The notes under the pieces were generated by a model. That model saw nothing but the letters and a program-made list of their open reading frames with translations, was not told the DNA's origin and searched no databases. A stretch of DNA of 64,000 bases from Cladocopium goreaui (lineage: Eukaryota > Sar > Dinophyceae > Suessiales > Symbiodiniaceae), in NCBI GenBank assembly GCA_947184155.2, contig CAMXCT020000370.1:82392-146391 (forward strand), given 5' to 3'. The position numbers and the translations under genes were made by a program. Of this stretch, positions 4,790 through 50,254 are shown one piece after another. Position 1 is the stretch's first letter. Every line of letters starts with the position of its first letter.

Positions 4790-6130
4790 TGAAATGTATA
4801 TTACTATATTACTATGTATTACTTTGTATTATTGGAATACTTCTTCAGCTGTGGGCCGAAATGAGGCCTGCAAGTGAACATCATTCCTGCAAGCTCACAT
4901 GCAAAGAATGATCAAAATCCTGAAATTTAGGAGTTGGAAGGTGAATCAGCACTTGACAACGCAGCAGTCTTTTGATAAGTCATTGGCATTTCTTCAAAGG
5001 AAGGGGAGAGGCGAGTATGCGTCTTGGCTTCACGCCACAAAAAAACAAAAACGCTACTCAAACTTGGATGATTCAGCTATATTCATCTATATTCAGCTTC
5101 TAGAAGTACCAGGGCATCTTTCAGTTGAATCAAATTGCAGTGGCTCGTACTGCTGCAGCCGCGACCTTGGGTATGTAGCAACTCCGAAAGGTGCGGCCAT
5201 CTCAAAGTCGGTATGGTTGCTTCAAAAAAAAAATGACAAGCAACATGAACGCTACGCATTTTTTCGGTAACCCAGTGACACAACTGGAAAGGAACAAGGA
5301 TACATCGAAAACAACATGGACGGCACTGGGGCACTACTGTATGTTGGGAATGGTTTTGACAGATTTTGAAAGTAGCTCAAGGATATCAAAAGGTCAACAC
5401 GGGAGGTTCGGTGCGTACAAAGGGGTGAACTTGGTGAACTGCAAAGCAAACAAACATGGAGAAAGGATGAGAAAAGGAGGGTTGGGAGGCATTCGACTGA
5501 AATGACCTGGGTACATGTAGAGAGACCGTTGCAGTACCATTTTAGTGTTCAATGCAGTGTCAGAGCAAACTGCGCTTCCTTGTTCCCCTTTGCTTGGCAA
5601 AATTGAGCCTGCTTAAGTCCAAGCAAGGTCAGGGTTTTAAAATAATTGTGCCATAATTATTCCAACATCTCAACTTGCACGAATAGAATATTTTTCGGGA
5701 AAGATGTTGCTTGTGAATATAAGGGGGGGTAGGACAAGAGAAGGAACAAGAAGGAATCGAAAGGGAGAGGCACGATGCAAAAAAACATAATAAAGAAAAA
5801 AAAAACACGAAGAGGCAGGAGGGAACGTGATAGATCACATTCCAGCTTTCCTGATAAAGTGGAACACCAAACAAATGCAGATAGGATAGGTTCACAGGTG
5901 GTCCCCATGTGAGCTTAACATATGGAAGTCTGAGAATGCTGCAGTGGTTTGCCCACCTGAGTGTTGGCACGACAACTTGAAGTATCACATGCCGTGGCTT
6001 GTCTACATCCGATGTACATATCTCATTCCAAGAAAAACTGTTTTGAAGACCCCTGAGCGCGACTGTGATGGGGAAGTGCCTGGCCAACTACTCCCTACTA
6101 TCATGAAGTGTGCGGGGCCCAACCCATTGA
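4790..6130. other. Ambiguous region, both strands open in places
   Basis: At about 5220-5083 the minus strand reads HLSELLHTQGRGC and then LIQLKDALVLLEAEYR before a stop, which looks mildly coding. At 6100-5840 both strands hold long open frames of similar quality (a minus frame starting ARHFPITVALRG and a plus frame starting VVCPPECWHDNL), and I could not decide between them. No complete gene is claimed. Confidence 0.2.
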
Positions 6131-6135
6131 CAATA

Positions 6136-6650
6136 TTATAGCGACGGACAATCACTTAGAACATATTTGGGGGAAAAATTGACTACACTGAGAGCTATGT
6201 TTTAGAACATGCGAAAGTCACCACAAAGTCACCACAGTTAGAACATCACAAGACATTACGACATACACAAATTTACAAATATCCATTGACATAATGATAG
6301 TGGTTGACATACACTTAGAACATATTTACCAAAATTCCCGAGCTCACACTTAGAACCGCTTGTTTAAGGATTTTGCCCCACACCTAGAACGTCAACTTAG
6401 AATAGAACATCTGAGTAATATTGCACCCTGATATTCTAAGTGTGGAGCCTTTGCAAGCTAATGATTGCTTTTGAACATCATCATACATTATCACATCATC
6501 AACCCTGCGCGCATTTCATTTTTTGCCGCATAGCAATCATTTCAACCTAATTTTGATGCCTTTGTTCGAAGCTCGCCAGACAGCGGTTCTAAATTGTGAG
6601 ATTGGAAAAATTCAGAAAATGATTTTCTAGGTGATTGTCCGTCGCTATAA
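6136..6650. mobile_element. 515-bp MITE with 20-bp perfect terminal inverted repeats
   Basis: The left end TTATAGCGACGGACAATCAC is repeated as an exact reverse complement at 6631-6650; one mismatch then TAGAA extends the match to about 26 bases. The outer bases are compatible with a TA target duplication next to TAGCGACGG, as for Tc1/mariner-type MITEs, but the exact cut point is ambiguous because the ends are themselves TTATA/TATAA. The interior has no ORF and is dotted with CTTAGAAC and inverted TTCTAAG words. It is non-autonomous; the source transposase is not in this window. Confidence 0.82.
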
Positions 6651-6766
6651 TCGCTTTCATGTGTACGTTTATATAGTTCGATAAATGCTGCATGAAATAT
6701 TTATACGTATAGGATGAAATTGATTTTTGACTGCAGCCATAACCTTGTTTCGGGGCCCTGGGATAA

Positions 6767-6850
6767 AGTACGCTTCCTGTAGATCTTTCAACACTGGCAA
6801 TGAGGTAGAGTACACTTCCTGTAGCTCTTTCAACAATGGCAATGAGGTAG
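6767..6850. repeat. 42-bp direct tandem duplication
   Basis: Two adjacent 42-base copies starting AGTACGCTTCCTGTAG and AGTACACTTCCTGTAG, differing at only a few positions. It keeps a plus-strand frame open (KYASCRSFNTGNE and EYTSCSSFNNGNE). It may be part of a decayed repeat; no function is inferred. Confidence 0.85.
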
Positions 6851-6897
6851 ATGTCGTCTCATGTTGGGATGATGTAGGTAAGCCTTTGGGATGTTCT

Positions 6898-7169
6898 AAG
6901 TGTGGGGTCTCCACAGCAGAATGCAAGCACACACACATATATATATATACCTATAGTATAACTGTCAGCCGAATTTTGAATCCAATGTGGAACGGGTAAT
7001 CCTCTGATTTGATTCAGAAATCTTTGAGATGTGAACTTAACCTGAAGCACAATTGGAATCCCTTTGTACATCAACACTAAAGCGTAGTTGAATGAATATT
7101 CCAGCGCAATCCAAAATCGGATGTTCAAAGTGTATGTAAGTGTGGGGTCTCCACAGCAGAATGCAAGCA
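6898..7169. repeat. Pair of 32-bp identical direct repeats 240 bp apart
   Basis: The segment AAGTGTGGGGTCTCCACAGC...AAGCA occurs at 6898-6929 and again, identically, at 7138-7169. Each copy runs into an AT or CA/TA microsatellite. The second copy lies just left of element copy 1 (start 7186), so the interval could be a duplicated landing site or an older element remnant. Confidence 0.85.
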
Positions 7170-7216
7170 TATATATATATATATATTGGGGGGTGCTGTG
7201 GCCTGTTTATCTGTTC

Positions 7217-7370
7217 CACAGCCCCCCCTATCTGGAACTATATATAAATTTTCAGGAACTATATTTAAATTCTCAGGAACTATATACAGATTCTCAGGAA
7301 CTATATTTAAATTCTCAGGAACTATATATAAATTCTCAGGAAATTTATTTAGAATCTCAGGAATTTCAGG
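7217..7370. repeat. Subterminal 21-bp repeats (GGAACTATATATAAATTCTCA)
   Basis: About six tandem copies of a 21-bp unit lie just inside the left end of element copy 1; the equivalent in copy 2 is 15676-15803. The same GGAACTATATATAAA core recurs at 8725-8790 and, inverted, beside the right terminus of copy 2 (18553-18613). This arrangement resembles the subterminal transposase-binding motifs of hAT-type elements. That reading is inference. Confidence 0.85.
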
Positions 7371-8442
7371 GGCTATGTAAAAGATATCAACATGTATGTT
7401 GTATGATTTCTGATGATTTCACGAATCTTGTCGATCTCAGTGCGACTCTGTTGCGGAGAAAACTGGGAAATATCAATTTCTCAAGCAAAGTTCTCGCAAA
7501 ACTGGCCGGCCAAAGTTTTTTCCCCCATGTGTTGCTCCAAGCCTTCTGCTGAAAATTGCCCTAAGGCTCCACATTTATAAATGGTTGATGTGACAGATCC
7601 TTGGTAGCAAAATATCTTCAACTTGTAACAACCAAGTAGTTGGTATCATTTTGCGTTCCTATCTTCTAGTTTGGTTGTGACATTCCTGCAGGCCCCGATC
7701 GACTTCATCTTGCGCGGTTTCCTTGGAGACGAGCCTGTGGGACTGGCTTTGATCGATGGCTATTTCTTGTAGGAAATCCACCTTGAGTTCCTTGACCATC
7801 AGATGCAGGGTGCCATAGCATACTGACAGTATCATTGTTACGTTCATTCATACTGTATGAATTGGGAGATTCGAGAAGTTAGTAAACCTCGCTCACCAGA
7901 CACTTGGATGCTTGTGATTCATGACTAAACCTTACCGTGCTATCACCAGAATCATTTTCAGATTTTCTCTTCCTATTCCATATTGACATTGACTTATTCA
8001 GTGGGTGATCTCCCGGAAAAAGGTTAAAGTTTAGGCGTCGTCTGAGTAAGTTGATTTACTCTTGCGTCGTATGATATGGACGGACCCTGTAAAACTTCAT
8101 TCGTACAGTATAAAGAGAGGTATTCGTAGCTCAGAAAGTTGCACAATTGTCAATTGCGATGACTTACTTTCTTGGTGGCTTACAAGAGCTCAATCTGAAA
8201 ACGAAATCAAAGTCCACTTGTACATCCACACATTGTATCTAGTTTTTGAGAACATCAACCTAGTCTAGTCTAGTTCAGCGGTCCAAGCCCGGGCAGCCAC
8301 TGAGTTCTGCCGATTTCGGGCTGCCACAGAGCCGCCGTCGGGTCTACATTTTGATGGCTCGCAAAGATTTGGTTTCCTACCAAGTCTTCAATGACGTGGT
8401 GAAGTCCATTGAGGATGTTTTGACCCAAGTTTTTCCTGTCAG

Positions 8443-8562
8443 GACAGGTTGGCCGATGTGCGGGGCCATGTGGAGATCACTTCCGAGTACAAGACGGGCT
8501 ACAAGTTGCATTTCCCTCCTGCAGCCAAGGACCCTGAGCAGCAAAAAGCGCGTGTGGCCTAG
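8443..8562 (+). pseudogene. Captured exon-like fragment inside TIR element copy 1
   Basis: After a strong TTTTTCCTGTCAG acceptor the plus strand reads 39 codons (RLADVRGHVEITSEYKTG, then KLHFPPAAKDPEQQ) ending in TAG. Copy 2 carries the same block at 16886-17005. The acceptor and a protein-like frame inside an otherwise repeat-built element suggest a captured host exon. No family is recognised, and no donor or start for a complete gene is visible. Confidence 0.35.
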
Positions 8563-8708
8563 ACACATCATCTTTTAACAGTCCCGGGCCCTGGTTTATA
8601 CCTCAGCCTGACGCCGGTCCTCCTAAGTGAGACGACCTCTAAGTGTGGACTTTTTTCCCGGCAGTTTTCCGGAACACCAAAACCACTGCTGTCCTGGATT
8701 GTCAAAAA

Positions 8709-9119
8709 ATGTCCCTTACTAAACTATATACCGGAACTATATTTAAATCCTTTGGAACTATATATAAAATCTTCGGAACTATATATAAAACCGATCTCGG
8801 TATATCCTCTCGAGGACTGGCCGCCAGGTCCGCCACAGACCTTAGGCAGACCCCAGGTCAAACGCCCACAAATTCCCTGCGTTTCGTCAGCCTGTGCTCC
8901 CAGGATGGTGTGATCAGTGCATCCAAACGACGCCAGCAATTTGTCAAGGATTGCCAGAAGAAGCTGGGGCTGGGAAGCGGGATGGAGTTCTACACTGAGT
9001 CCCATCTGGAGCCACACCAGAAGGCCATGCTTAACACCCGAGAAGCAGAGAGCCTGAATATCCAGTTTGCCTCTTTGGTTGTTACTCAGCTTTGCTTCGA
9101 CAGTGGTGGGATGGGATGA
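8709..9119 (+). CDS. 136-codon ORF inside TIR element copy 1, doubtful
   Basis: An ATG-initiated frame. The first third simply translates the GGAACTATATATAAA repeats (GTIYKIFGTIYK); the rest reads like unique protein (SASKRRQQFVKDCQKK, FYTESHLEPHQKAML). The same ORF, unchanged in length, is at 17152-17562 in copy 2. The antisense strand is also open for 149 codons. It is not a recognisable transposase: I see no RNase-H-like DDE signature or BED finger. It may be a second captured exon read through repeat DNA. Confidence 0.3.
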   Translation: MSLTKLYTGTIFKSFGTIYKIFGTIYKTDLGISSRGLAARSATDLRQTPGQTPTNSLRFVSLCSQDGVISASKRRQQFVKDCQKKLGLGSGMEFYTESHLEPHQKAMLNTREAESLNIQFASLVVTQLCFDSGGMG

Positions 9120-9323
9120 TACTTCCGTCTGCTCTTTCCAAGATCCCTTTTTGCCAAGCCACATTCTAACCATGTCATCTTAAGATTTTGACCAAGGGGG
9201 AAACGACTTATAACTTCTAAGTTTGTAACGGTTTCTTGATTGACTTTGTCATGTTGGCTGAAAAAAAGACAGAAAAAAAACAAAAAATGAAAAAAAATGA
9301 AAAAAACACAAACCATCTCAGTA

Positions 9324-10024
9324 TTGGTTCAGAACCGTTCGGAACCGTTCTGAACTCTATATTTTTTTTTGGCGAAGAGTAGTTCGGAACCGTTCGGAAC
9401 CGTTCTGAACTATATATAAAAACAAGTTGCAGAAGTAGTTCAAAACCGTTCGGAACCGTTCTGAACTATATATAAAACATGCAGCAAATATAGTTCGGAA
9501 CCGTTCGGAACCGTTCTGAACTATATATAAGATATGCTTTAAATATAGTTCGGAACCGTTCGGAACCGTTCTGAACTATACATAAACTCTGTTTATATAT
9601 AGCGCGGAACCGTTCGGAACCGTTCTGAACTATATATGCGTCCAAAACCTTTTTAGTTCCAATGAGTTCCGATTAGTTCCAAATAGTTCCAAATAGTTCC
9701 GATGTAAAAATAGTTCGGAACCGTTCCGAACCGTTCTGAACTATATATAAAACATGCAGCAAATATAGTTCGGAACCGTTCCGAACCGTTCTGAACTATA
9801 TATAAGATATGTTAATAAGTAGTTCGGAACCGTTCAGAACCGTTCTGAACTATATCTTTGATTTATTTTTTATATGTAGTTCGGAACCGTTCGGAACCGT
9901 TCTGAGCTTTATTACACTGCATGTTTTTATATATAGTTCGGAACCGTTCGGAACCGTTCTGAGCTATATTACACCGTATTTTTTTATATATAGTTCGGAA
10001 CCGTTCGGAACCGTTCTGAACTAT
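9324..10024. repeat. Array of about 12 long palindromes (TAGTTCGGAACCGTTC units)
   Basis: Units spaced about 55 bp apart each carry TAGTTCGGAACCGTTC, one central G, then GAACCGTTCTGAACTA. Folded on itself this gives about 16 base pairs with one mismatch and one G-T pair. Spacers are AT-rich (ATATATAAAACATG and similar). Copy 2 has the same array at 17772-18470. Translations such as SSEPFGTVLNY are repeat artefacts. Confidence 0.92.
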
Positions 10025-10109
10025 CTTTGTCAGATTTTTGTTTTAGCCAATATTTTCTTGATTTTTTGAAAGTTAGTTTAGTTGTTAAGTTATGAAATAT
10101 AGGTTTTAT

Positions 10110-10158
10110 TCCCGAGAGCGCCTGCGAAGGGTTCTTCGTAAAAAAGCAGCCGTTATAC
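10110..10158. repeat. Composite satellite family 1, locus A: header anchor
   Basis: The sequence begins TTCCCGAGAGCGCCTGCGAA and continues GGGTTCTTC. The matching header at 47459 reads TTCCCGAGAGCGTCTGAGCG and then AAGGGTGCTTC. It begins exactly where TIR element copy 1 breaks off, so this is probably the true 5' edge of the composite. Confidence 0.75.
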
Positions 10159-10714
10159 TAGATCTTCACTCCTTCACATCTGCTGATCTAGATCTTCACT
10201 CCTTCACATCTGCTGATCTAGATCTTCACTCCTTCACATCTGCGGATCTAGATCTTCACTCCTTCACATCTTCACTCCTTCACATCTGCTGATCTAGATC
10301 TTCATACCCTCACACCTGCAGATCTAGATCTTCACACCTTCACATCTGCAGATCTAGATCTTCACACCCTCACATCTGCAGATCTAGATCTTCACACCCT
10401 CACATCTGCCGATCTAGATCTTCACACCTTCACATCTGCAGATCTAGATCTTCACACCCTCATATCTGCAGATCTAGATCTTCACACCCTCACACCTGCA
10501 GATCTAGATCTTCACACCCTCACACCTGCAGATCTAGATCTTCACACCCTCACATCTGCAGATCTACATCTTCACACCCTCACACCTGCAGATCTACATC
10601 TTCACACCCTCACATCTGCAGATCTACATCATCACACCCGCACACCTGCAGATCTAGATCTTCACACCCTCACACCTGCAGATCTAGATCTTCACACCTT
10701 CACATCTGCAGATC
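10159..10714. repeat. Family 1, locus A: 30-bp tandem array (module B)
   Basis: About 18 copies of a 30-bp unit, GATCTAGATCTTCACACCCT plus CACATCTGCA. The unit is built from the 8-bp word TCACATCT, which makes up the corresponding array at locus B, plus a palindrome AGATCTAGATCT. There are no spacers between units, so this is not a CRISPR array. Confidence 0.93.
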
Positions 10715-10778
10715 TCTTGTCGCTCTTCTTCTATTCTCTCTTAAGGCGGGGGCGGTGCCGCCGGAGCGCCACGAAACG
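10715..10778. repeat. Family 1, locus A: pyrimidine tract and conserved anchor
   Basis: A TCTTGTCGCTCTTCTTCT pyrimidine run leads into TCTCTTAAGGCGGGGGCGGT and then CACGAAACGCAACCC. The equivalent at 48121-48233 has TCTCTTAAGGCGTGGGGCAG and then GGCACGAAACGCAAC. These single-copy anchors between arrays are what tie the two loci together. Confidence 0.75.
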
Positions 10779-11524
10779 CAACCCTTTCGCACGAAATGGA
10801 CGTTGGACGTCCAAAACCTATGTAAAATTGCGATTTTGAAGCGTCGCCGGCAACCCTTTCGCACGAAATGGACGTTGGACGCCAAAAACTGAGGAAAAAT
10901 TGCAACTTTTATTGGTCGCGCGCAACCCTTTCGCACGAAATGGACGTTGGACGTCAAAAACTGAGGAAAAATTGCGACTTTGAAGCGTCGCGCGCAACCC
11001 TTTCGCACGAAATGGACGTTGGACGTCAAAAACTGAGGAAAAGTTGCGATTGTCATCCGTCGCGCGCAACCCTTTCGCACGAAATGGACGTTGGACGTCA
11101 AAAACTGAGGAAAAATTGCGACTTTGAGTTGTCAATCGCAACCCTTACGCACGAAATGGACGTTGGACGTCAAAAACTGAGGAAAAATTGCGACTTTGAG
11201 TTGTCAATCGCAACCCTTACGCACGAAATGGACGTTGGACGTCAAAAACTGAGAAAAAATTGCGACTTTGAGTTGTCAATCGCAACCCTTACGCACGAAA
11301 TGGACGTTGGACGTTAAAAACTGAGGAAAAATTGCGACTTTGAAGTGTCCCGCGCAACCCTTACGCACGAAATGGACGTTGGACGTTAAAAACTGAGGAA
11401 AAATTGCGACTTTGAAGTGTCCCGCGCAACCCTTACGCACGAAATGGACGTTGGCCGTCAAAAACTGAGGAAAAATTGCGACTTTGAGTTGTCAATCGCA
11501 ACCTTTACGCACGAAATGGACGTT
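10779..11524. repeat. Family 1, locus A: 72-bp tandem array (module C)
   Basis: CAACCC landmarks fall at 10779, 10851, 10923, 10995, 11067, 11139 and so on to 11499, an exact 72-bp period for ten full units plus a partial. A typical unit runs CGCAACCCTTTCGCACGAAA, TGGACGTTGGACGTCAAAAA, CTGAGGAAAAATTGCGACTT. Because 72 is a multiple of 3, frames stay open on both strands (24-residue repeats), which creates spurious ORFs at 10700-11101, 10868-11317 and others. Confidence 0.95.
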
Positions 11525-12430
11525 GTGTGTAAAAGCGTCTGTGTGTAAAAGTGCAAAAGCGTTTGTGTGTAAAAGCGTCTGTGTGTAAAAGCGCCTGTGT
11601 GTAAAAGCTTCTGTGTGTAAAAGCGTCTGTGTGTAAAAGCGTCTGTGTGTAAAAGCGCCTGTGTGTAAAAGCTTGTGTGTAAAAGCGTCTGTGTGTAAAA
11701 GCGTCTGTGTGTAAAAGCGCCTGTGTGTAAAGGAGTCTGTGTGTAAAAGCTTCTGTGTGTAAAAGCTTCTGTGTGTAAAAGCGTTTGTGTGTAAAAGCCT
11801 CTGTGTAAAAGCGCCTGTGTGTAAAAGCTTCTGTGTGTAAAAGCGTCTGTGTGTAAAAGCGTCTGCGTGTAAAAGTGCAAAAGCGTTTGTGTGTAAAAGC
11901 GCCTGTGTGTAAAAGCTTCTGTGTGTAAAAGCGTCTGTGTGTAAAAGCGTCTGTGTGTAAAAGCGCCTGTGTGTAAAAGCTTGTGTGTAAAAGCGTCTGT
12001 GTGTAAAAGCGTCTGTGTGTAAAAGCGTCTGTGTGTAAAAGTGTCTGTGTGTAAAAGCGTCTGTGTGTAAAAGTCTCTGCGGGTAAAAGCCTCTGTGTGT
12101 AAAAGTCTCTGTGTGTAAAAGAGCCTGTGTGTAAAAAGCGTCTGTGTGTAAAAGCGTCTGCGTGTAAAAGTGTTTGTGTAAAAAGCGTCTGTGTGTAAAA
12201 GCGTCTGTGTGTAAAAGCGTCTGTGTGTAAAAGCGTCTGTGTGTAAAAGGCTCTGTGTGTAAAAGCGTCTGTGTGTAAAAGAGCCTATGTGTAAAAAGCG
12301 TTTGTGTGTAAAAGTCTCTGTCTGTAAAAGCGTCTGTGTGTAAAAGCGTCTGTGTGTAAAAGCTTCTGTGTGTAAAAGCCTCTGTGTGTAAAAGCGCCTG
12401 TGTGTAAAAGCTTCTGTGTGTAAAAGCGTC
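11525..12430. repeat. Family 1, locus A: 16-bp tandem array (module D)
   Basis: Dozens of copies of GTGTGTAAAAGCGTCT with variants (GCCTCT, GCTTCT, GTCTCT). The minus strand has no stop codon in any of the three frames of this unit, so it translates as endless FTHR/FYTQ/LLHT text. This is an array property and not evidence of a gene. Confidence 0.95.
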
Positions 12431-12486
12431 CCTTACGCACGAAATGGACGTTGGACGTCAAAAACTGACAAAAAATTGCAATTTTA
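12431..12486. repeat. Single module-C unit embedded in module D
   Basis: One diverged 72-bp-type unit (CCTTACGCACGAAATGGACG, then TTGGACGTCAAAAACTGACA, AAAAATTGCAATTTT) interrupts the 16-bp array. It shows that modules can be transferred or recombined within a locus. Confidence 0.85.
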
Positions 12487-12812
12487 CTGTGTGTAAAAGC
12501 TTCTGTGTGTAAAAGGGTCTGTGTGTAAAGGAGTCTGTGTGTAAAAGCTTCTGTGTGTAAAAGCGTCTGTGTGTAAAAGCGCCTGTGTGTAAAAGCGTCT
12601 GTGTGTAAAGGACTCTGTGTGTAAAGGAGTCTGTGTGTAAAAGCGTCTGTGTGTAAAAGCGTCTGTGTGTAAAAGCGTTTGTGTGTGAAAGCGTGTGTGC
12701 GTGTGTAAAAAGCATCTGCGTGTAAAAGCGTCTGTGTGTAAAAGCGTTTGTGTGTGAAAGCGTGTGTGCGTGTGTAATAAGCATCTGCGTGTAGGAGCGT
12801 CTGTGTGTGATG
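12487..12812. repeat. Family 1, locus A: second 16-bp array block
   Basis: Continuation of GTGTGTAAAAGCGTCT-type units, becoming irregular (GTGTGTGAAAGCGTGTGTGC and AAAAAGCATCTGCGTG) before ending in unique sequence at about 12812. Confidence 0.9.
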
Positions 12813-13618
12813 GCATTCTCAGTTTGGAACGCAGCGAACAAATCCTTTGCAGTGGATTGTGCAACTCTGCACCGACAAGCATAGTTTACCTCTTTACCTC
12901 TTTCCTTGGCTCAGATGTGAACGTAGAGACAAGATGCATTGTGTACAGGGTGAACATCCATATTCTTATATGTACGCTGAATGTTCGTGAAACAAGTGAC
13001 GATTGGCAAACAGGTATCTTGAACATTTCTTGGACTTCTCGAGGTTTCTGTGGGGGCTGTCCCTGAGATCTCGAGAATTGCATTGTGACAATGTCAGTGT
13101 TTGTTTACGATGCAGTGGATCTATGTAAGTACAGCACGAAAAAATATATGTAATGTTTTCATGGAAATGCATGAGCAGTGGACAAAAAATACTATTCGGG
13201 CCGATCCTGACATGCCGCCATTTTTAAGTCGGGACCTTATATGCAAATGAATAACATGTGGTTTGATGATTTGATGTGTTCATTGTAAGCTTCACTGTTG
13301 ACACGTTCAGCCTTCAGTTTGCAGGACTCTGCGACAGTGGTTCTTTGCCATGTCAAACTCATGCGTGGCATTCTCAGTTCTTTTGTGGACATGTCCATGA
13401 TGATTGTTTTGTGCACAGAGTGAACATTCTTATTCCCATATGTACGCTGAATGTTCGTGAAACAAGTGATGATCGGACCGCATGGTTTTTGACAATGAAA
13501 ATGATCTGATGCTGGTTTCGCAGTGCGGTTGATGTATTTATATATAGCATGTGTATTGTTTGCATGTTTGCCATTCTTTGATAGACGTTGTTCGGGAAGC
13601 AGCAGCTGAGTTTTGAGC
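12813..13618. repeat. Unique spacer with a diverged direct repeat
   Basis: A block at 12941-13009 (GTGTACAGGGTGAACATCC...TATGTACGCTGAATGTTCGT) recurs at 13411-13478 with a few substitutions, preceded in both cases by GGCATTCTCAGTT (about 12809 and 13368). It looks like an old duplication of a few hundred bases. No gene is recognised here. The shared frame (CTLNVRETSDD) is open in both copies, which is weak evidence that it was once coding. Confidence 0.6.
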
Positions 13619-13718
13619 NNNNNNNNNNNNNNNNNNNNNNNNNNNNNNNNNNNNNNNNNNNNNNNNNNNNNNNNNNNNNNNNNNNNNNNNNNNNNNNNNN
13701 NNNNNNNNNNNNNNNNNN
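13619..13718. other. Assembly gap (100 N)
   Basis: Exactly 100 unknown bases, the usual placeholder for a scaffold gap of unknown size. Order and distance between the sequences on either side are not proven by this window. Confidence 0.99.
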
Positions 13719-13945
13719 TAATATAGATATTACCTTTGCGTAATATATTAAATATATGTATATATATATATTACCTTTGCGGAATGTTAAAATTTGCAGA
13801 AAATATAATTAAAATAAATAATTTTATTTCTTTTTCAATTTTATTTACCTTTCTAGCTCATGATTCCTCAATAATACAATATATATATATAGATATATAT
13901 ATATAGATATATATATATATAGATATATATATAGTACAATATACT
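13719..13945. repeat. AT microsatellite (TATATATAGATATA)
   Basis: Imperfect (TA)n with interspersed GATATA next to the assembly gap, including a short repeated word ATTACCTTTGCG (13729 and 13769). Confidence 0.85.
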
Positions 13946-13982
13946 ATATGTTTACATAATTGTTTTGCTTTATTAATTTTGT

Positions 13983-14130
13983 TATCCGGGCCAGAGGTCG
14001 TCTGTAAATACCTCGATATCTGTTGCAATCTGTTGTACTATTCTAGCCAACAAGAGTTCGCCCTTTATGTCTTGCAGAAAATTGTTCAATTTGTGTCCAT
14101 TGATATCAACAATTGCCTTTTGCCTTAAGT
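13983..14130 (-). CDS. Candidate exon ending at a stop
   Basis: After an ATACTTAAG acceptor-like site the minus strand reads KAIVDINGHKLNNFLQDIKG, then ELLLARIVQQIATDIEV, and stops. A neighbouring block at about 14240-14140 reads RIILNDSELLILLEALWNGS in another frame. It may be the 3' part of the minus-strand gene or genes seen further right, but the gap to the left and unresolved phases keep this weak. Confidence 0.27.
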
Positions 14131-14571
14131 ATATCCAAAAAGAGTATATAAATTGAAAAATGATCCATTCCATAGGGCTTCAAGGAGGATAAGAAGTTCA
14201 GAATCATTCAATATGATCCGATAAAACCTGTCTCTCCGGAACCTGGATCACTCTGCACCAAGCTGCCATCAGCACAAAGGAAACTGCCACAACCTCAGCC
14301 CCCATCTACTGACCAGTACACCTTGTTGCTCCTCGCGGCATTGATCTGCTGTACAATTATGTACGCTTAATGTGCATATCCCGCAAAGTGTATCTATATA
14401 CTTGGTACATGTTAATTTAATGCGTGGGTTAGTGTGCAACCAGTACTTGTTGTACATGAATATTTTGCAAGATATCTGTTTATTCCTAAGGCTAGCTGCT
14501 AAGGTTACTTCATGTTACTTCGCAATCTGTAAGTTTTGATAAGTTTGTATCTTGCTGAACCAAAGTTGTCC

Positions 14572-14725
14572 TCAGAAAATTGTTCTCAAAAGGCGCTGCG
14601 TCCTATCTCTCAGCAAGGTCCTTTCATTTTTTAGCCATTCAACCTGGTCACACGTCCCTGAGCACTTCACCACCACTATGCGGAGCAACACGCTACTCGT
14701 CTCCTTGACGGTCGTGAGGTTCAAC
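14572..14725 (-). CDS. Candidate exon with stop codon
   Basis: From a CTATCCGTTTCCAG acceptor the minus strand reads LNLTTVKETSSVLLRIVVVK, then CSGTCDQVEWLKNERTLLRD, and ends in TGA. The composition is protein-like, with hydrophobic strand and charged helix patterns. No family is recognised, and no phase partner has been confirmed. Confidence 0.3.
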
Positions 14726-14729
14726 CTGG

Positions 14730-15078
14730 AAACGGATAGATGCGGAACAAGGCGGCAAGGCGGCAAGGCGGCACAAGCTGAGAGCGTTGCAGCCAAAGGA
14801 TCAGGAATCCACTGAAGCCTCGGTCACACTTCCTGTAAAGAACCTTGTGGTGTCCATGAAAATCATGAAAATCCAGATTGAAATTAGTTTTGAAGCAAAA
14901 GTGCTTCCGATCACGTGTGACTTTCATACGGTGTGACGAATCAAACCGCTGGATTTTCAAGTGAAGCACATCTCTAGTCAAGTCATGTTCTCTTCTGCTG
15001 GTGCCAACGTTAGTCCGGTGTGAGCCTCCAATCAGCAAATGATCATACAGAACTATGTACAGTCTTGTGATGTCCCCA
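14730..15078 (-). CDS. Long open frame, candidate exon
   Basis: The minus strand is open for over 110 codons, reading GGDITRLYIVLYDHLLIGGS and then RDVLHLKIQRFDSSHRM. A donor AAG|GTTCTT after HGHHK (near 14838) would end it earlier. No clear acceptor is seen at the start. It lies left of element copy 2, on the same strand as the candidate exons right of it, so copy 2 may sit inside an intron. Confidence 0.3.
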
Positions 15079-15083
15079 CCCAA

Positions 15084-15619
15084 GTGTCAAGATGGTGATT
15101 ACATTTCATTTGAGATCATTCTAGTTTAGCTGCAGCTGCTCAAGTTTTGGCAAGTTTGGTGAGTCTACGTCAGTTCAAGCTTGATGTGTTCTCTGCATGG
15201 CCAGTCGCACATGAACTGAACCTTCTTTTGCAACCGGCCCTTCAAATCCGAAGAACCCAGACCATATCTTCTGTATTGTTCAAAACATGATAAGACATGA
15301 TAAAATATGATAAAACATGATAAAACATCGCATCCGGACTTTTCTTCATATTAAAACTTCTTAGTCCCCCAGAGAATTGGGCCGCAGACCAATGCAAAAT
15401 AAGACGAAGAGCTGCAATGGCACTGGGGAGCCCAAGGCCTTGGCTCTTCAGCACTTTTCGGTATCTGCGCGACACCACTGATATCATCCATCAAAAAGTG
15501 CTGCAAATGCACCACACCATGCCCTGCTCTTCTCACTAAGAACCAACTTCCAAAGATCCACCTTAGGGAACCCATGACCGAACAGGTTTGGCAGGTGACA
15601 TATAGCCGCTAATATAGCC
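15084..15619. other. No firm gene left of TIR element copy 2
   Basis: Minus-strand frames at about 15580-15480 (PKVDLWKLVLSEKSRAWCG) and 15470-15350 (SAIAALRLILHWSAAQFSGG) look mildly coding but are in different frames with no clear splice pair. A short (ATGATAAAAC)n-like stretch is at 15285-15327. Confidence 0.25.
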
Positions 15620-15627
15620 TATATAGC
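15620..15627. other. Left 8-bp target site duplication of element copy 2
   Basis: TATATAGC immediately precedes TTGGGGGGTGCTG and recurs exactly at 18669-18676 after the right terminus. Eight-base duplications are typical of hAT and some other cut-and-paste superfamilies. Confidence 0.8.
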
Positions 15628-16885
15628 TTGGGGGGTGCTGTGGCCTGTTTATCTGTTCCACAGCCCCCCCTATCTGGAACTATATATAAATTTTCAGGAA
15701 CTATATTTAAATTCTCAGGAACTATATACAGATTCTCAGGAACTATATATAAATTCTCAGGAACTATATATAAATTCTCAGGAAATTTATTTAGAATCTC
15801 AGGAATTTCAGGGGCCATGTATAAGATATCAACATGTATGTTGTATGATTTCTGATGATTTCACGAATCTTGTCGATCTCAGTGCGACTCTGTTGCGGAG
15901 AAAACTGGGAAATATCAATTTCTCAAGCAAAGTTCTCGCAAAACTGGCCGGCCAAAGTTTTTTTCCCCCATGTGTTGCTCCAAGCCTTCTGCTGAAATTT
16001 GCCCTAAGGCTCCACATTTATAAATGGTTGATGTGACAGATCCTTGGTAGCAAAATATCTTCAACTTGTAACAACCAAGTAGTTGGTATCATTTTGCGTT
16101 CCTATCTTCTAGTTTGGTTGTGACATTCCTGCAGGCCCCGATCGACTTCATCTTGCGCGGTTTCCTTGGAGACGAGCCTGTGGGACTGGCTTTGATCGAT
16201 GGCTATTTCTTGTAGGAAATCCACCTTGAGTTCCTTGACCATCAGATGCAGGGTGCCATAGCATACTGACAGTATCATTGTTACGTTCATTCATACTGTA
16301 TGAATTGGGAGATTCGAGAAGTTAGTAAACCTCGCTCACCAGACACTTGGATGCTTGTGATTCATGACTAAACCTTACCGTGCTATCACCAGAATCATTT
16401 TCAGATTTTCTCTTCCTATTCCATATTGACATTGACTTATTCAGTGGGTGATCTCCCGGAAAAAGGTTAAAGTTTAGGCGTCGTCTGAGTAAGTTGATTT
16501 ACTCTTGCGTCGTATGATATGGACGGACCCTGTAAAACTTCATTCGTACAGTATAAAGAGAGGTATTCGTAGCTCAGAAAGTTGCACAATTGTCAATTGC
16601 GATGAGTTACTTTCTTGGTGGCTTACAAGAGCTCAATCTGAAAACGAAATCAAAGTCCACTTGTACATCCACACATTGTATCTAGTTTTTGAGAACATCA
16701 ACCTAGTCTAGTCTAGTTCAGCGGTCCAAGCCCGGGCAGCCACTGAGTTCTGCCGATTTCGGGCTGCCACAGAGCCGCCGTCGGGTCTACATTTTGATGG
16801 CTCGCAAAGATTTGGTTTCCTACCAAGTCTTCAATGACGTGGTGAAGTCCATTGAGGATGTTTTGACCCAAGTTTTTCCTGTCAG

Positions 16886-17005
16886 GACAGGTTGGCCGAT
16901 GTGCGGGGCCATGTGGAGATCACTTCCGAGTACAAGACGGGCTACAAGTTGCATTTCCCTCCTGCAGCCAAGGACCCTGAGCAGCAAAAAGCGCGTGTGG
17001 CCTAG
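16886..17005 (+). pseudogene. Captured exon-like fragment inside TIR element copy 2
   Basis: Same block as 8443-8562, with the same TTTTTCCTGTCAG acceptor and TAG stop. No disabling change between copies was noticed, which reflects recent duplication rather than selection. Confidence 0.35.
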
Positions 17006-17151
17006 ACACATCATCTTTTAACAGTCCCGGGCCCTGGTTTATACCTCAGCCTGACGCCGGTCCTCCTAAGTGAGACGACCTCTAAGTGTGGACTTTTTTC
17101 CCGGCAGTTTTCCGGAACACCAAAACCACTGCTGTCCTGGATTGTCAAAAA

Positions 17152-17562
17152 ATGTCCCTTACTAAACTATATACCGGAACTATATTTAAATCCTTTGGAA
17201 CTATATATAAAATCTTCGGAACTATATATAAAACCGATCTCGGTATATCCTCTCGAGGACTGGCCGCCAGGTCCGCCACAGACCTTAGGCAGACCCCAGG
17301 TCAAACGCCCACAAATTCCCTGCGTTTCGTCAGCCTGTGCTCCCAGGATGGTGTGATCAGTGCATCCAAACGACGCCAGCAATTTGTCAAGGATTGCCAG
17401 AAGAAGCTGGGGCTGGGAAGCGGGATGGAGTTCTACACTGAGTCCCATCTGGAGCCACACCAGAAGGCCATGCTTAACACCCGAGAAGCAGAGAGCCTGA
17501 ATATCCAGTTTGCCTCTTTGGTTGTTACTCAGCTTTGCTTCGACAGTGGTGGGATGGGATGA
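17152..17562 (+). CDS. 136-codon ORF inside TIR element copy 2, doubtful
   Basis: The counterpart of 8709-9119. Its N-terminal part is translated repeat; its C-terminal part (from about residue 40) is unique-looking and charged. No transposase motif is seen. Confidence 0.3.
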   Translation: MSLTKLYTGTIFKSFGTIYKIFGTIYKTDLGISSRGLAARSATDLRQTPGQTPTNSLRFVSLCSQDGVISASKRRQQFVKDCQKKLGLGSGMEFYTESHLEPHQKAMLNTREAESLNIQFASLVVTQLCFDSGGMG

Positions 17563-17771
17563 TACTTCCGTCTGCTCTTTCCAAGATCCCTTTTTGCCAA
17601 GCCACATTCTAACCATGTCATCTTAAGATTTTGACCAAGGGGGAAACGACTTATAACTTCTAAGTTTGTAACGGTTTCTTGATTGACTTTGTCATGTTGG
17701 TTGAAAAAAGACAGAAAAAAAAACCAAAAAATGAAAAAAAAAAATGAAAAAAACACAAACCATCTCAGTAT

Positions 17772-18470
17772 TGGTTCAGAACCGTTCGGAACCGTTCTGA
17801 ACTCTATATTTTTTTTTGGCGAAGAGTAGTTCGGAACCGTTCGGAACCGTTCTGAACTATATATAAAAACAAGTTGCAGAAGTAGTTCAAAACCGTTCGG
17901 AACCGTTCTGAACTATATATAAAACATGCAGCAAATATAGTTCGGAACCGTTCGGAACCGTTCTGAACTATATATAAGATATGCTTTAAATATAGTTCGG
18001 AACCGTTCGGAACCGTTCTGAACTATACATAAACTCTGTTTATATATAGCGCGGAACCGTTCGGAACCGTTCTGAACTATATATGCGTCCAAAACCTTTT
18101 TAGTTCCAATGAGTTCCGATTAGTTCCAAATAGTTCCAAATAGTTCCGATGTAAAAATAGTTCGGAACCGTTCCGAACCGTTCTGAACTATATATAAAAC
18201 ATGCAGCAAATATAGTTCGGAACCGTTCCGAACCGTTCTGAACTATATATAAGATATGTTAATAAGTAGTTCGGAACCGTTCAGAACCGTTCTGAACTAT
18301 ATCTTTGATTTATTTTTTATATGTAGTTCGGAACCGTTCGGAACCGTTCTGAGCTTTATTACACTGCATGTTTTTATATATAGTTCGGAACCGTTCGGAA
18401 CCGTTCTGAGCTATATTACACCGTATTTTTTTATATATAGTTCGGAACCGTTCGGAACCGTTCTGAACTA
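17772..18470. repeat. Palindrome array in element copy 2
   Basis: About 12 units equal in order and spacing to 9324-10024, including the same irregular stretch of TAGTTCCAAATAGTTCC words in the middle. Confidence 0.92.
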
Positions 18471-18668
18471 TCTTTGTCAGATTTTTGTTTTAGCCAATAT
18501 TTTCTTGATTTTTTGAAAGTTAGTTTAGTTATGTTAAGTTATGAAATATAGGTTTTATATATAGTTCCAAAGATTTTATATATAGTTCCAAAGGTTTTAT
18601 ATATAGTTCCAAGCTCTTACCCCCCCTCAACACAAGTCATCAAATAAACAGGCCGCAGCACCCCCTAA

Positions 18669-21460: not shown

Positions 21461-22363
21461 CTAAGAATAGTCTTTCATTGAAAAGCAAACAAGTTGCTCT
21501 GACAAAAACCCAGATTCCGCGTCATCCAAGTGCTGCTTCTGACCTAAAGCTTGGCCACATCGCACCGCTGCCATCAGCATACTTGCTTGAATGGCTGGAC
21601 TAGCATCCATATCCCCAGGATCCCCGTCAGGTTCTTTCCGAACAAGAAATATTGAAGCTCCCGACATCTTTTGAAGCTTCATGGCCAACTCTGGAATCTC
21701 TGGGCTTCGCAGTAAATGCCCTAAGTGCTTCTCTGCAATCTCCTTGCTATCAGCGGTCATGGGCACATCACACAGTGCGGTCAAGGCCTGCAATTGACGA
21801 AGAACGCAGTTCTCTACAGAATCTCTTGAGGTCGCTATGCCCAAACAATCATGGGTCCACTTGGCTGCTTTGGCTTTGCTTCCTTTTCCATACTCCAACT
21901 CATACCCACTGAAGAGATTGGTGGTAAGCGAAAATCGCTTTGACAAATGGCGTGCTGCCAGGGTTGCAGAAGTGTTCAGCAACTGTTCGATCCGTTCTTT
22001 GTATGATGCTTCCAGCGCTGCCGGAGCTTGCTTTGCAGCTGCAACAAGTAAGAACGCTGAAAGTGTCCATGGCAATGAAAGAAGATTCATGAGAACTGTA
22101 ACTGTAAACAAACTTGTTGACATTTGACAGTGGTTTTGGACGACCGTGATACGAGTACAAGCTACAAGCATGTACAAGCTCTGTCTCAGCAACAAAAAAC
22201 GACTCGATGTCGTGGCGCTTGAGATTAGTACACAAAAAACCTTTGCAAGTGTTTGGATATTGCATGATATTGCTTTTATTTGAGCAAATTTTAGCTGATC
22301 AAAACTCCCTGCTGGGAATGGGCACGCAGGCATGTGAACTTGCGTTCCATTGGCAATTCTCAA
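21461..22363 (-). CDS. 300-codon open frame, hypothetical protein or long exon
   Basis: This is the longest non-repetitive open frame in the window. It opens at a TTG, so the true start is either the ATG at 22123 or a splice acceptor. From the ATG the first 30 residues are hydrophobic and signal-peptide-like (LFTVTVLMNLLSLPW, AFLLVAAAKQAPA), giving a 220-residue product. The same stretch is also a good intron end: GTTCTTACTTGTTGCAG precedes AAKQAPAALEASYKERIEQL. Further on are SKRFSLTTNLFSGYELEYGK, a soluble helical middle, PEIPELAMKLQKMSGASIFL, and LMAAVRCGQALGQKQHLDD before the stop. No family is recognised. It lies just upstream, on the same strand, of the exon chain at 21.2-19.9 kb and may be its first part. 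Confidence 0.55.
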   Translation of the reverse strand: MRIANGTQVHMPACPFPAGSFDQLKFAQIKAISCNIQTLAKVFCVLISSATTSSRFLLLRQSLYMLVACTRITVVQNHCQMSTSLFTVTVLMNLLSLPWTLSAFLLVAAAKQAPAALEASYKERIEQLLNTSATLAARHLSKRFSLTTNLFSGYELEYGKGSKAKAAKWTHDCLGIATSRDSVENCVLRQLQALTALCDVPMTADSKEIAEKHLGHLLRSPEIPELAMKLQKMSGASIFLVRKEPDGDPGDMDASPAIQASMLMAAVRCGQALGQKQHLDDAESGFLSEQLVCFSMKDYS

Positions 22364-31820: not shown

Positions 31821-31877
31821 TTACTTTACTTCGTGTGATCCTCACCATGACATTTATACATTTTCTTACTGGCAAAT
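31820..31877. repeat. Composite satellite family 2, locus A: header anchor
   Basis: CATTTATACATTTTCTTACT followed by GGCAAATCTTCTGGCATTC, preceded by ACTTCGTGTGATCCTCACCA. Locus B has the same header from 44120 (ACTTCGAATGATCCCCACCA then GGCATTTATACATTTTC). Both follow AT-rich microsatellite DNA. Confidence 0.85.
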
Positions 31878-32160
31878 CTTCTGGCATTCTATCTGACATA
31901 TCTTCTGGCATTCTATCTGACATTCTATCTGGCATATCTATCTGGCATTCTATCTGGCATTTTATCTGGCATATCTTCTGGCATTCTATCTGACATTCTA
32001 TCTGGCATATCTTCTGGCATTCTATCTGGCATATCTTCTGGCATTCTATCTGACATTCTATCTGGCATATCTATCTGGCATATCTCATGGCATTTTATCT
32101 GGCATATCTTCTGGCATTCTATCTGACATTCTATCTGGCATATCTTCTGGCATTCTATCT
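31878..32160. repeat. Family 2, locus A: 12-bp array (CATATCTTCTGG / CATTCTATCTGG)
   Basis: Tandem 12-bp units in two main versions. On the minus strand the 12-base period gives endless MPED/MPDR/MSDR text. This is a tandem array and is not called as a protein. Confidence 0.93.
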
Positions 32161-32345
32161 GGCCGTTGAGGTCCAGCGGTGCACACTGAGCTGGGCAGGT
32201 CCCAGGTTGAGGTCCAGCGGTGGGACCGTCCCAGGTTGAGGTCCAGCGGTGCACACTGAGCTGGGAAGGTCCCAGGTTGAGGTCCAGCGGTGCACACTGA
32301 GCTGGGCAGGTCCCAGGTTGAGGTCCCAGTGCACACTGAGCTGGG
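32161..32345. repeat. Family 2, locus A: 41-bp array
   Basis: Units begin GTTGAGGTCCAGCGGTGCAC and continue ACTGAGCTGGGCAGGTCCCAG; GTTGAGG landmarks at 32165, 32206, 32235, 32276 and 32317 give 41-bp spacing with one shortened unit. It starts directly after ATTCTATCTGGCC, the same junction as at locus B. Confidence 0.92.
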
Positions 32346-47458: not shown

Positions 47459-47510
47459 TTCCCGAGAGCGTCTGAGCGAAGGGTGCTTCTAATAGTGGGG
47501 GTCTGTCAAA
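47459..47510. repeat. Composite satellite family 1, locus B: header anchor
   Basis: TTCCCGAGAGCGTCTGAGCG then AAGGGTGCTTCTAATAGTGG; matches the locus A header at 10109-10158 over about 34 positions with a few differences. Confidence 0.75.
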
Positions 47511-48120
47511 CATTTTCACATCTTCACATTTTCACATCTTCACATCACATCTTCAATTCTCACATCTTCTCATCCTCACACCCTCACATCTTCACATCTT
47601 CTCATCTTCACATCTTCGCATCCTCACATCTTCACACCTTGAAATCTTCACATCTTCACATCCTCACATCCTCACATCCTCACATCTTCACATCTTCTCA
47701 TCTTCACATCTGCTCATCTTCACATCTTCTCATCTTCACATCTGCTCATCTTCACATCTTCTCATCTTCACATCTGCTCATCTTCACATCTTCTCATCTT
47801 CACATCTTCTCATCTTCACATCTGCTCATCTTCACATCTTCTCACCTTCACATCTTCACATCTTCACATCTTCTTATCTTCACATCTTCACATCCTCACA
47901 TCCTCACATCTTCACATCTTCTCATCTTCACATCTTCACATCCTCACATCCTAACTTCCTCACATCTTCACATCCAAAAATTCACATCTTCCCATCTTCA
48001 CATTTTTTCATCTTCACATCACATCTTCACATCTTCTCATCTTCTCATCTTCTCATCTTCACATCTTCACATCCTCACATCTTCACATCCTCACATTTTC
48101 ACATCTTCACATCTTCACAT
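47511..48120. repeat. Family 1, locus B: 8-bp array (TCACATCT)
   Basis: Tandem TCACATCT units with TCTCATCT, GCTCATCT and CCTCACAT variants. At locus A the same word is expanded into a 30-bp unit. The plus-strand reading HIFTSSHLHIFSSS is an artefact. Confidence 0.93.
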
Positions 48121-48233
48121 TCTCTCTTGCCCTCTTGCTCTCTTGCCCTCTTGCTCTCTTGCCCTCTTCTTTTTCCTTCTTTTCTATTTCTCTCTTAAGG
48201 CGTGGGGCAGTGCCAACGAGACGGCACGAAACG
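48121..48233. repeat. Family 1, locus B: pyrimidine tract and conserved anchor
   Basis: CTCTTGCCCTCTTGCTCTCT repeats, then TTTCTCTCTTAAGGCGTGGG and GGCACGAAACGCAACTC. Same place and wording as 10715-10778 at locus A. Confidence 0.75.
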
Positions 48234-48500
48234 CAACTCTTTCGAACGAAACGAGGTTCGATCGCCAAAAACTGCGGTAAAATTGCGGTTTTCAAGTGTC
48301 GGTCGCAACCTTTTCGCACGAAACGAGGTTCGATCGCCAAAAACTGCGGTGAAATTGCGATTTTACAACCTCGGCGGCGACCCTTTTGCACGAAATGAGG
48401 TTCGATCGCCAAAAACTAAAGTGAAATTGCGATTTTGAAGTGCCCGTCGCAACCCTTTCGCACGTGAAATGAGGTGTGATCGTCGAAAACTGCGGTAAAA
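48234..48500. repeat. Family 1, locus B: 72-bp array (module C)
   Basis: CAAC landmarks at 48234, 48306, 48378 (as CGACCC) and 48450 give an exact 72-bp period. Units read CGCACGAAACGAGGTTCGAT, CGCCAAAAACTGCGGTAAAA, TTGCGGTTTTCAAGTG. Same framework as locus A but with GAGGTTCGATCGCC in place of GGACGTTGGACGTC. Confidence 0.93.
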
Positions 48501-48504
48501 AGGT

Positions 48505-49480
48505 ACTTCTGTGTGTAAAAAGTGTCTTTGTGTAAAAGCGTCTGTGTGTAAAAGTCTCTGTGTAAGCGTCTGTGTGTACAAGCTTCTGTGTGTAAAAGCG
48601 TCTGTGTGTAAAAGCTCCTGTGTGTAAAAGCCCCTGTGTGGAAAGCTTCTGTGTGTAAAAGCTTCTTGTGTAAAAGGTGTGTAAAAGCTTCTGTGTGTAA
48701 AAGCTTCTGTGTGTAAAAGTGTCTGTGTGTAAAAATATTCTGTGTGTAAAAGCTTCTGTGTGTAAAAGCTTCTGTGTGTAAAAGTGCCCGTGTGTAAAAA
48801 TCTTCTGTGTGTAAAAGCTTCTGTGTGTAAAAATTTCTGTGTGTAAAAGCTTCTGTGTGGAAAAGCTTCTGTGTGGCAAAGCTTCTGTGTGTAAAAGCTT
48901 CTGTGTGTAAAAGCTTCTGTGTGTAAAAGCGTCTGGGTGTAAAAGTGTCTGTGCGTAAAAGTGTCTGTGTGTAAAGCTCCCGTGTGTAGAAGCTTCTGTG
49001 TGCAAAAGCGTCTGCGTGTAAAAAGCTTCTGTGTGTAAAAGCTTCTGTGTGTAAAAATATGCTGTGTGTAAAAGCGTCTGTGTATAAAAGCGTCTGTGTG
49101 TAAAAGCTTCTGTGTGTAGCTTCTGTGTGTAAAAAGCTTCTGTGTGAAAAACTTCTGTGTGTAAAAAGCTTCTGGGTGCAAAAGCGTCTGTGTGTCAAAG
49201 CGTCTGTGTGTAAAAGCGTCTGTGTGTCAAAGCTTCTGTGTGTAAAAGCGTCTGTGTGTAAAAGCGTCTGTGTGTAAAAGTGTCTGAGTGTATGGGAAAA
49301 ATCTTCTGTTGGTCTTTTGTATGTAAAAGCTTCTATATGTAAAAGCTTCTGTGTGTAAAAGCTTTTGTGTGTAATTAAAAGTGTTTGTGTGTAAAAGCTT
49401 CTGTGTGTCAAAGTTGTTGTGTGTACAGGCTTCTGTGTGTAAAAGCTTCTGTGTGTAAAAGCTGCTGTGTGTGTGGGTTT
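48505..49480. repeat. Family 1, locus B: 16-bp array (module D)
   Basis: GTGTGTAAAAGCTTCT and GTGTGTAAAAGCGTCT units with length variants; the GCTTCT version dominates here, the GCGTCT version at locus A. The minus strand is open throughout (up to 378 codons) because the unit has no minus-strand stop in any frame. Confidence 0.93.
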
Positions 49481-50254
49481 GTGTGTGTGTCTGTGTATAT
49501 ATGTGTAAACATGTTTCTCTGCGTGTGTCTGTGTTTGAGAGCCTATCAGCATATCTGTATGTTTGCATTTTTCACATCTTCAATAACATTCTATACAGCA
49601 TACCTTGCCTGTCTCTTGCAACTAAAACCCTGACATCTTCACGTATTCTTATCTTGACATCTACACATAATGAACATATTCACATGATCTCAAGTAACAT
49701 TCTCCTGGACATATTCATGCAAGTCTTTGGAGTCTGCAAATCATACAACTACATAACACATCTGAGTACCTATACACCTACTCGCTCTCGGGCCAACCAT
49801 CGTCTAGTTTTGTTAGTTTTGAGGATGTCAATTGGAGCCAAGGCTCTCCCAGAACTTGCAGATCCAAAGAGTCAAACGGCGGCTGCTCCTGCTCCAGCAA
49901 CCGTTTGGATGGGTCGAATAATAAACTGTTCAAACATATTCATGCATTGTAGCGGCGCAACATAGTGCAATGGATTAAATTAGAGGAACTTACTGAACTT
50001 ACGCATAAATGCACAAAAATGCGCTATGCCTAAATGGTTTTGGTGTGTTCATGATCACAAGCATAAACCTGCATTTGGAGCCCCATGTCTGCTCTGGTGA
50101 CGTCGTGACAGCAAGCCACTCTCAAGCTGGGGCCAAAACAGATTTCATGTCCGCCAAAAAAACTTCCCACCTGCAGGGGTGTCATCCGACTCAGTGGGGT
50201 TGCTTTCAACAGAATCCAAGGACAACGCACAACAAAACACGACACACACACACA
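49481..50254. other. Unique spacer ending in a (CA)n tract
   Basis: No firm gene. A (CA)n run at 50243-50259 marks the left edge of the 1.3-kb tandem array. Confidence 0.4.

Follow-up and report, generated by a model that had tools for sequence, protein, structure and literature searches.

Two ordered satellite loci of Cladocopium goreaui as probable members of one Helitron-type transposon family

A 64,000-nucleotide stretch of the dinoflagellate Cladocopium goreaui (assembly GCA_947184155.2, contig CAMXCT020000370.1, positions 82,392 to 146,391; the whole stretch is called the window here) contains two loci, at 10109-12808 and 47459-49472, in which the same modules follow one another: a header, a tandem array (B), CTCTTAAGGCG, a CACGAAACGCAAC anchor, a 72-bp array (C) and a 16-bp array (D). 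This raises the question of what sets such arrays in the same order at two sites. An earlier note on this DNA had proposed that a dispersed unit takes its arrays along, and this proposal is borne out by fixed ends, unrelated flanks, one empty site inside an array and a Rep/helicase-bearing relative. We conclude that the two loci very probably represent two subfamilies of one transposon family of the Helitron superfamily (rolling-circle transposons) that carries three ordered arrays. Direct observation covers the ends, the order, the number of copies and a single empty site, as well as one contig on which the 5′ modules are followed by a Rep/helicase frame.

Ends, copy number and array order across the genome

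In the window, the header had two matches at up to three mismatches, both exact, with a shuffle mean of 0.38 and two matches reached in 4 of 100 shuffles. The CTCTTAAGGCG anchor, searched as TTCTCTCTTAAGGCG, also had two matches, both exact; its count is weak taken alone, because 34 of 100 shuffles also reach two at up to three mismatches. The segments 10103-11115 and 47453-48500 were 66.9% identical over 1055 alignment columns. All modules were present at both loci in the order first described, and both loci are real; their extent had been set too short, as copy 2 runs to 49807 and copy 1 goes past 12808 to at least the assembly N gap at 13619.

The element begins with TT and CCCGAGAGCG and ends with CGCTCTCGGG followed by CCAWCCGTCGTCTAG, that is, the inverted header core and then CTAG. 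It holds B, C and D in this order behind its 5′ end and closes with CGCTCTCGGG, 15 bp and CTAG, with asymmetric inverted repeats near the ends. These ends were searched in the window's own assembly (1.17 Gb, 6,202 contigs), where the header with TT had 3,972 matches at up to two mismatches (reversed control, 436), the exact header 14-mer CCCGAGAGCGYCTG 2,390 (reversed control, 3) and the 25-bp 3′ end 2,623 at up to two mismatches (control, 0). TT stood directly before the exact CCCGAGAGCGYCTG in 96 of the first 100 matches listed, and the 3′ terminus was CTAG, of the CTRR type found in the Helitron superfamily, in 15 of 16 distinct 3′ ends and CTAT in one. The CTAT terminus belongs to the copy at locus L075, whose D array counts about 300 units (4.8 kb).

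The two ends also occur together. For the first 100 exact headers in contig order, which are not a random sample, and for the 82 of 100 listed exact 3′ ends lying on contigs up to C124, 61 headers were followed within 25 kb by a listed 3′ end on their own strand; an opposite-strand 3′ end was found for 3 of the 100 and an upstream one for 4. The span from header to 3′ end in the 61 pairs ranged from 0.9 to 12.1 kb, with a median of 2,672 bp. Related, diverged headers, CCCGAAAGCTCCTG after GAGTT, were seen in L088 at 3277 and 7007 and perhaps represent a third subfamily.

Had the modules occurred in random order genome-wide, the earlier note would have regarded the two loci as coincidental or as one segmental duplication; the tabulation gave instead B-C-D, by first occurrence, in 27 of the 27 copies with all three arrays, out of 33 copies examined. 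The first sample (n = 25) came from 20 long loci, of which two contributed a further header each, and also included L097 and both window copies; all three arrays were present in 20 of the 25, with B before C before D in 20/20, and eight further 3-kb loci added seven such copies with the order kept in 7/7. In the remaining six of the 33 copies one or two arrays were present, and no departure from the order was seen in them; L072 was covered over 1.5 kb only. Array B starts at about position 52 in 30 of the 33 copies (the exceptions are L086, L090 and L074), a second D array is present in L077, L093 and L094, and islands of C sequence occur within the D arrays of L079 and of copy 1, in the latter near 12430-12492 by self-alignment.

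The copies fall into two subfamilies, and the window copies are one of each. GCCT headers pair with 30-bp-based B units and, wherever the printed consensus shows the C unit, with GGACGTTGGACG C units; GTCT headers pair with other B units, mostly 8/16-bp based with periods of 8 to 60, and mostly with GAGG-TCGATCG C units, from which L081 deviates. The 30-bp versus 8-bp B units and the differing C units noticed at the two loci were seen again by tandem repeats finder (TRF) and consensus comparison, but drift of single loci, to which they had been attributed, does not account for them, since the differences are subfamily traits tied to the GCCT and GTCT headers. Nor do the loci contain four unrelated arrays as had been stated: the B arrays of both subfamilies are related (their score was reached in 0 of 1000 shuffles), and the pyrimidine tract forms an array, of 2.9 short copies, in copy 2 only. 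A shuffle test found no kinship of C with B beyond chance, and C against D scored no better than chance, the score being reached in 139 to 242 of 1000 single-base shuffles. On sequence comparison there are therefore three unrelated array families, B, C and D. By eye it seemed possible that the D unit derives from the C unit, a reading rejected on the same 139 to 242 shuffles.

One locus, L079, carries two copies (297-2934 and 5757-7948) placed 5.46 kb apart in near-identical flanks; both flanks are common to the two apart from one base in the compared part, and the pair is one duplicated locus, not two insertions.

Insertion sites and a Rep-bearing relative

In order to describe the target, flanks were collected from copies chosen by exact TTCCCGAGAGCGYCTG, with the base before TT left free. 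Among 33 distinct 5′ flanks this base was T in 28, A in 3 and G in 2; TTT directly preceded the terminal TT in 25 of the 33, with TTTT in 13 of these, and some copies had TTAA or TTTG before TT and no T run. On the other side, the flank started with T in 16 of 16 distinct 3′ flanks. Precise boundaries and empty sites, which had been proposed as a check, were both found, the ends being fixed to the base and one empty site lying within a host array. The copy in L083 sits inside a 52-bp tandem array, whose unit length is restored once TT...CTAG is removed, with no target duplication; the junction unit then has the same 34-nt stretch as both neighbouring units, and the insertion falls between A and T. 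Because cutting out TC...CTAGT restores the same L083 sequence, the terminal T is not placeable with certainty.

A second site is provided by the window itself. Copy 1 interrupts another transposon (7178..10108, forward strand, by alignment) at 10108/10109, and an uninterrupted copy of this host transposon (15620..18665, forward strand, aligned up to 18558) supplies the pre-insertion sequence of the left side: 7178-10109 and 15620-18558 are 99.4% identical and the alignment stops at the first base of copy 1. The host transposon has inverted ends GGGGGTGCTGYGGCCTGTTTAT (by eye) and internal GTTCGGAACC arrays. By eye, the left side of copy 1 also fits an insertion between A and T, the right side being lost. 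The element inserts before T in T-rich DNA without target duplication.

In the window's own genome, the Helitron N-terminal domain PF14214 (Helitron_like_N) matched 145 of the 150 scored among 330 candidates, and it matched in none of 14 control genomes. The header list is complete for exact matches as far as contig C124, and six of these PF14214 matches fall within that range; one of them, C120:10576-11136 (minus strand), is found about 11 kb downstream of a same-strand header. Behind this header follow the B, C and D arrays, and after the D array come 785 bp (locus L098) at 99.7% identity to window 12834-13618, the tail of copy 1. The Rep frame, further on, reached an E-value of 1.1e-14 for PF14214, above the cut-off; a 682-aa helicase-like frame matched AAA_19 (E 0.00081) and PIF1 (E 0.0012), both below the Pfam cut-off, and beyond it lies a second match to the copy 1 tail, 98.8% over 172 bp (L095). 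A helicase search among solved structures gave no match. An endonuclease, the domain that Helentrons have fused to Rep/helicase, was not among the Pfam matches (E up to 0.1) of five C120 frames, which represent part of the protein only. The Rep frame had 58 homologues, and the two with a named organism came from Durusdinium trenchii and Effrenium voratum, both Symbiodiniaceae.

These observations suggest how the family could operate. Past the D array, the C120 copy leads on to Rep and a helicase-like frame, and in other copies a phosphatase frame is found there. Rep/helicase would not fit into most of the paired copies, which should depend on copies having it; the C120 Rep/helicase, placed in the same element as its header, would move the short copies, presumably by rolling-circle replication itself. 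Joined element ends would then read CTAG next to TTCCCGAG, as for rolling-circle movement. The arrays may change length after insertion, order and anchors being inherited, and copy 1 probably continued towards Rep/helicase before the N gap. Thousands of dispersed ordered minisatellite sets would in this way be explained by arrays riding on a Helitron-type element, with no new birth of arrays at each site.

Classification and rival explanations

The element very probably belongs to the Helitron superfamily and is nearest to Helitron2/proto-Helentron, where its ends, targets and lack of duplication fit best. We file it at superfamily level because canonical Helitron1 fails on target and hairpin, and Helitron2 does not match in full. 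Autonomous Helitrons have Rep and helicase, seen here on one contig with the helicase below cut-off, and the superfamily makes no target-site duplication, as at the one empty site, in L083. Canonical Helitron1 inserts between A and T, whereas A preceded TT in 3 of 33 flanks here, and it has a hairpin 10-12 nt before the 3′ end, in place of which both subfamilies have only a 3-bp stem 8 nt before it. The comparisons that follow draw on excerpts of the cited papers. Helitron2 has asymmetric inverted repeats that lie 0-2 bp from the 5′ end and about 20-30 bp from the 3′ end, and Helitron-1N1_CRe of Chlamydomonas inserts between TTTT and T/C with no target duplication (PMC3627910). The present family resembles them in having CCCGAGAGCG directly after TT and in its insertion after T runs, and differs in that its 3′ repeat lies 15 bp from the end and its hairpins are weak. 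Proto-Helentron-Pi of Phytophthora infestans has a 5′ TT, a 3′ CTAG, no target duplication and a Rep/helicase (PMC4067079), all four shared with the present family; its Rep/helicase is without endonuclease and it inserts between A and T (PMC4067079), whereas the base before TT is mostly T here, and the excerpts describe no ordered arrays for it.

Arrays inside such elements have precedents. The Cg_HINE elements, non-autonomous Helentrons of the oyster Crassostrea gigas, carry a single array, or in exceptional cases two in succession, whose units measure 138-181 bp, together with a microsatellite on the left (PMC7492417). They resemble our family in several respects: inverted repeats close to the ends, satellite-like arrays placed centrally and in fixed orientation, targets rich in T, no target duplication, and thousands of arrays spread by the elements. 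They differ from it in that here the order of three unrelated arrays (8/30, 72 and 16 bp) is fixed and the first array begins about 50 bp behind the 5′ end, in the Rep-leading copy as well, and that the 3′ end is CTAG; in place of the HINE palindrome after the 3′ inverted repeat, only the 3-bp stem is found. FoHeli of Fusarium oxysporum has asymmetric inverted repeats, a start that is ambiguous between TC and TTC, and insertion between TNAT and T (PMC5148889), and in these points it resembles the present family; the excerpts describe no ordered satellite arrays. Tetris of Drosophila virilis is likewise a transposon linked to tandem repeats, but of foldback type by its title (PMC4079207). Among openly accessible titles and abstracts, with subscription papers and repeat databases outside the scope, we found none that describes this element family. 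In their open text, a Symbiodiniaceae paper (PMC9087856) mentions helitrons once, and by term count the word helitron is absent from a review of dinoflagellate genomics (PMC11453091). The exact ends are now usable for annotating the family in a group whose helitrons, in the open papers seen, appear only in passing.

Several points weigh against the assignment of the two loci to one Helitron-superfamily family. For 39 of the 100 headers there was no listed exact 3′ end within 25 kb; these may be longer, contig-end-cut, truncated or diverged copies. Of the six PF14214 matches on contigs up to C124, only that on C120 is near a same-strand family header and the other five are not, so the majority of Rep genes in this genome may come from other families. 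The header-Rep link consists of one contig, of which C120:8001-10559 and 12601-17699 lie outside the sequence covered; no 3′ end was found in C120:1-8000, nor an exact one on C120 among the matches listed. The window does not include the 3′ end of copy 1, and for copy 2 no empty site is known. Finally, the hairpins of Helitron2 type are weak, with z-scores of -0.16 and 0.36 at the 5′ end and 0.56 and -2.11 at the 3′ end.

Mobility could also be of another kind. A cut-and-paste DNA transposon with terminal inverted repeats, MITE-like (miniature inverted-repeat) or foldback-like, that carries the arrays would agree with the perfect 10-bp inverted repeat at both ends, and by eye the similarity of the ends in subfamily B seems to extend further inward. 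We consider it very improbable, as the 3′ repeat lies 15 bp inside a fixed CTAG end, the single empty site shows no target duplication and a relative bears Rep/helicase. A plain terminal-inverted-repeat transposon had been our initial reading, which the CTAG terminus and the link to Rep led us to drop. A composite satellite without mobility of its own could have spread by unequal exchange or segmental duplication, and some loci, such as the L079 pair, are duplicated with their flanks; for the family as a whole we rate this as even less probable than cut-and-paste, given that 33 5′ flanks and 16 3′ flanks are distinct with the ends fixed to the base, and given end pairing for 61 of 100 headers against 3 and 4 in the controls. 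The T mostly found before the header could be read as an A tail on the other strand, which would make the element a poly(A)-tailed retroelement whose 3′ end is the header beside an A run. To this we assign the smallest probability of the three, because T also follows the opposite end, itself fixed at CTAG, TTAA or TTTG precedes TT in some copies, and the C120 Rep match lies on the header strand.

A further proposal goes beyond the Helitron-superfamily assignment, and we regard it as speculative and rather unlikely: the ordered arrays might be a working part of the element, not passengers, forming a 5′ control region of three satellite modules, and the element might keep a phosphatase gene of its own. 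The first part is suggested by the position of the arrays, which begin about 50 bp behind the 5′ end in the Rep-leading copy and in both subfamilies, and by order and anchors being kept while the unit sequence is replaced subfamily by subfamily; the second by copies of both subfamilies holding an open frame with an intact HCxxGxxRS. Whether a rolling-circle element needs its arrays in order to move becomes testable.

Phosphatase cargo, the window copies and other repeats

A frame of 261-265 aa lies between the two D arrays in L077, L093 and L094, and a 258-aa frame follows the sole D array of L084. The L077 frame has a dual-specificity phosphatase domain above the cut-off (E 7.5e-10), and that of L084 scored 33.3 bits for this domain against a cut-off of 33.5. 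The L077, L093 and L084 frames, of subfamily A, are 91-99% identical, and that of L094, of subfamily B, is 52-53% identical to them. All four contain HCFGGINRS, which we take to be the HCxxGxxRS active-site form. The dN/dS ratio was 0.85 between L077 and L093, which hardly differ; comparisons with L084 gave 0.38-0.42, and those with L094 gave 0.20-0.21 at a dS of about 2. This fits either a gene of the element or separate captures of host genes. Inside L094 the 3′ region occurs an additional time, with 95% identity over 184 bp but lacking the last 29 nt; after it come the cargo, the second D array and an intact 3′ end, a layout that capture by read-through of a lost terminator would leave.

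In the window, both copies lie on the forward strand, and array coordinates are those of TRF. Copy 1 (subfamily A; 10109..13618) is the 5′ part of a Helitron-type element, its readable part ending at the N gap at 13619-13718. It opens at 10109 with TT and the 5′ inverted repeat CCCGAGAGCG (10109..10120), followed by array B (30-bp unit x19, 10158..10715), the pyrimidine tract with CTCTTAAGGCG and the CACGAAACGCAAC anchor (10716..10790), array C (72-bp unit x10, 10777..11525) and array D (16-bp unit x79, 11524..12808). The internal non-array region (12809..13618) is by alignment in parts common to other copies, matching L084 at 98.5% over 203 bp and L077 and L093 at about 94-95% over about 297 bp; no CGCTCTCGGG, at up to one mismatch, occurs from 10121 to the N gap.

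Copy 2 (subfamily B; 47459..49807, 2349 bp) has both ends. TT and the 5′ inverted repeat (47459..47470) are followed by array B (8-bp unit x77, 47510..48120), the pyrimidine tract (16-bp x2.9 by TRF) with CTCTTAAGGCG and the CACGAAACGCAAC anchor (48122..48240), array C (72-bp unit x3.7, 48232..48500) and array D (16-bp unit x61, 48506..49472). A motif search of the 3′ region (49473..49782) found four degenerate B-type motifs, ACATCTTCAC at up to one mismatch, at 49574, 49633, 49657 and 49674; outside both array loci the window has seven such matches, these four and three others. The copy closes with the 3′ inverted repeat CGCTCTCGGG and a 15-bp tail ending in CTAG (49783..49807), then T, and 49783-49792 is a perfect 10-bp inverted copy of the header core CCCGAGAGCG.

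Exact-pattern scans of viral contigs gave 28, 15, 0 and 1 stretches and a collection of genome contigs gave none. The one viral-contig match that was examined, L044, is phage-like and without tandem arrays. We take the viral-contig matches as chance, because the D-array motif occurred in none of 44 loci. The dinoflagellate spliced leader was absent from the window, and an 18-mer part of it was in 0 of 94 loci.

A second modular composite lies at 31811-32560 and 44112-44891, with the same order at both places and 73% identity; it consists of a 12-bp CTGGCATTCTAT array, an array of about 40 bp based on GTTGAGGTCC and a GAG run, with ends near CACCTGGCAGGTG. Adjoining arrays of 15/47-bp, 41/159-bp and 15/48-bp units stand beside one of its copies at 32620-33800. 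A Pfam scan of seven window frames gave no match above cut-off. For the frames 61242-61925 and 21464-22129, public assemblies contain proteins at 98-99% identity (60 and 17 member sequences), and both are probably host genes. At 50254-54507, a unit of about 1307 bp is repeated in tandem slightly more than three times at about 99% identity.

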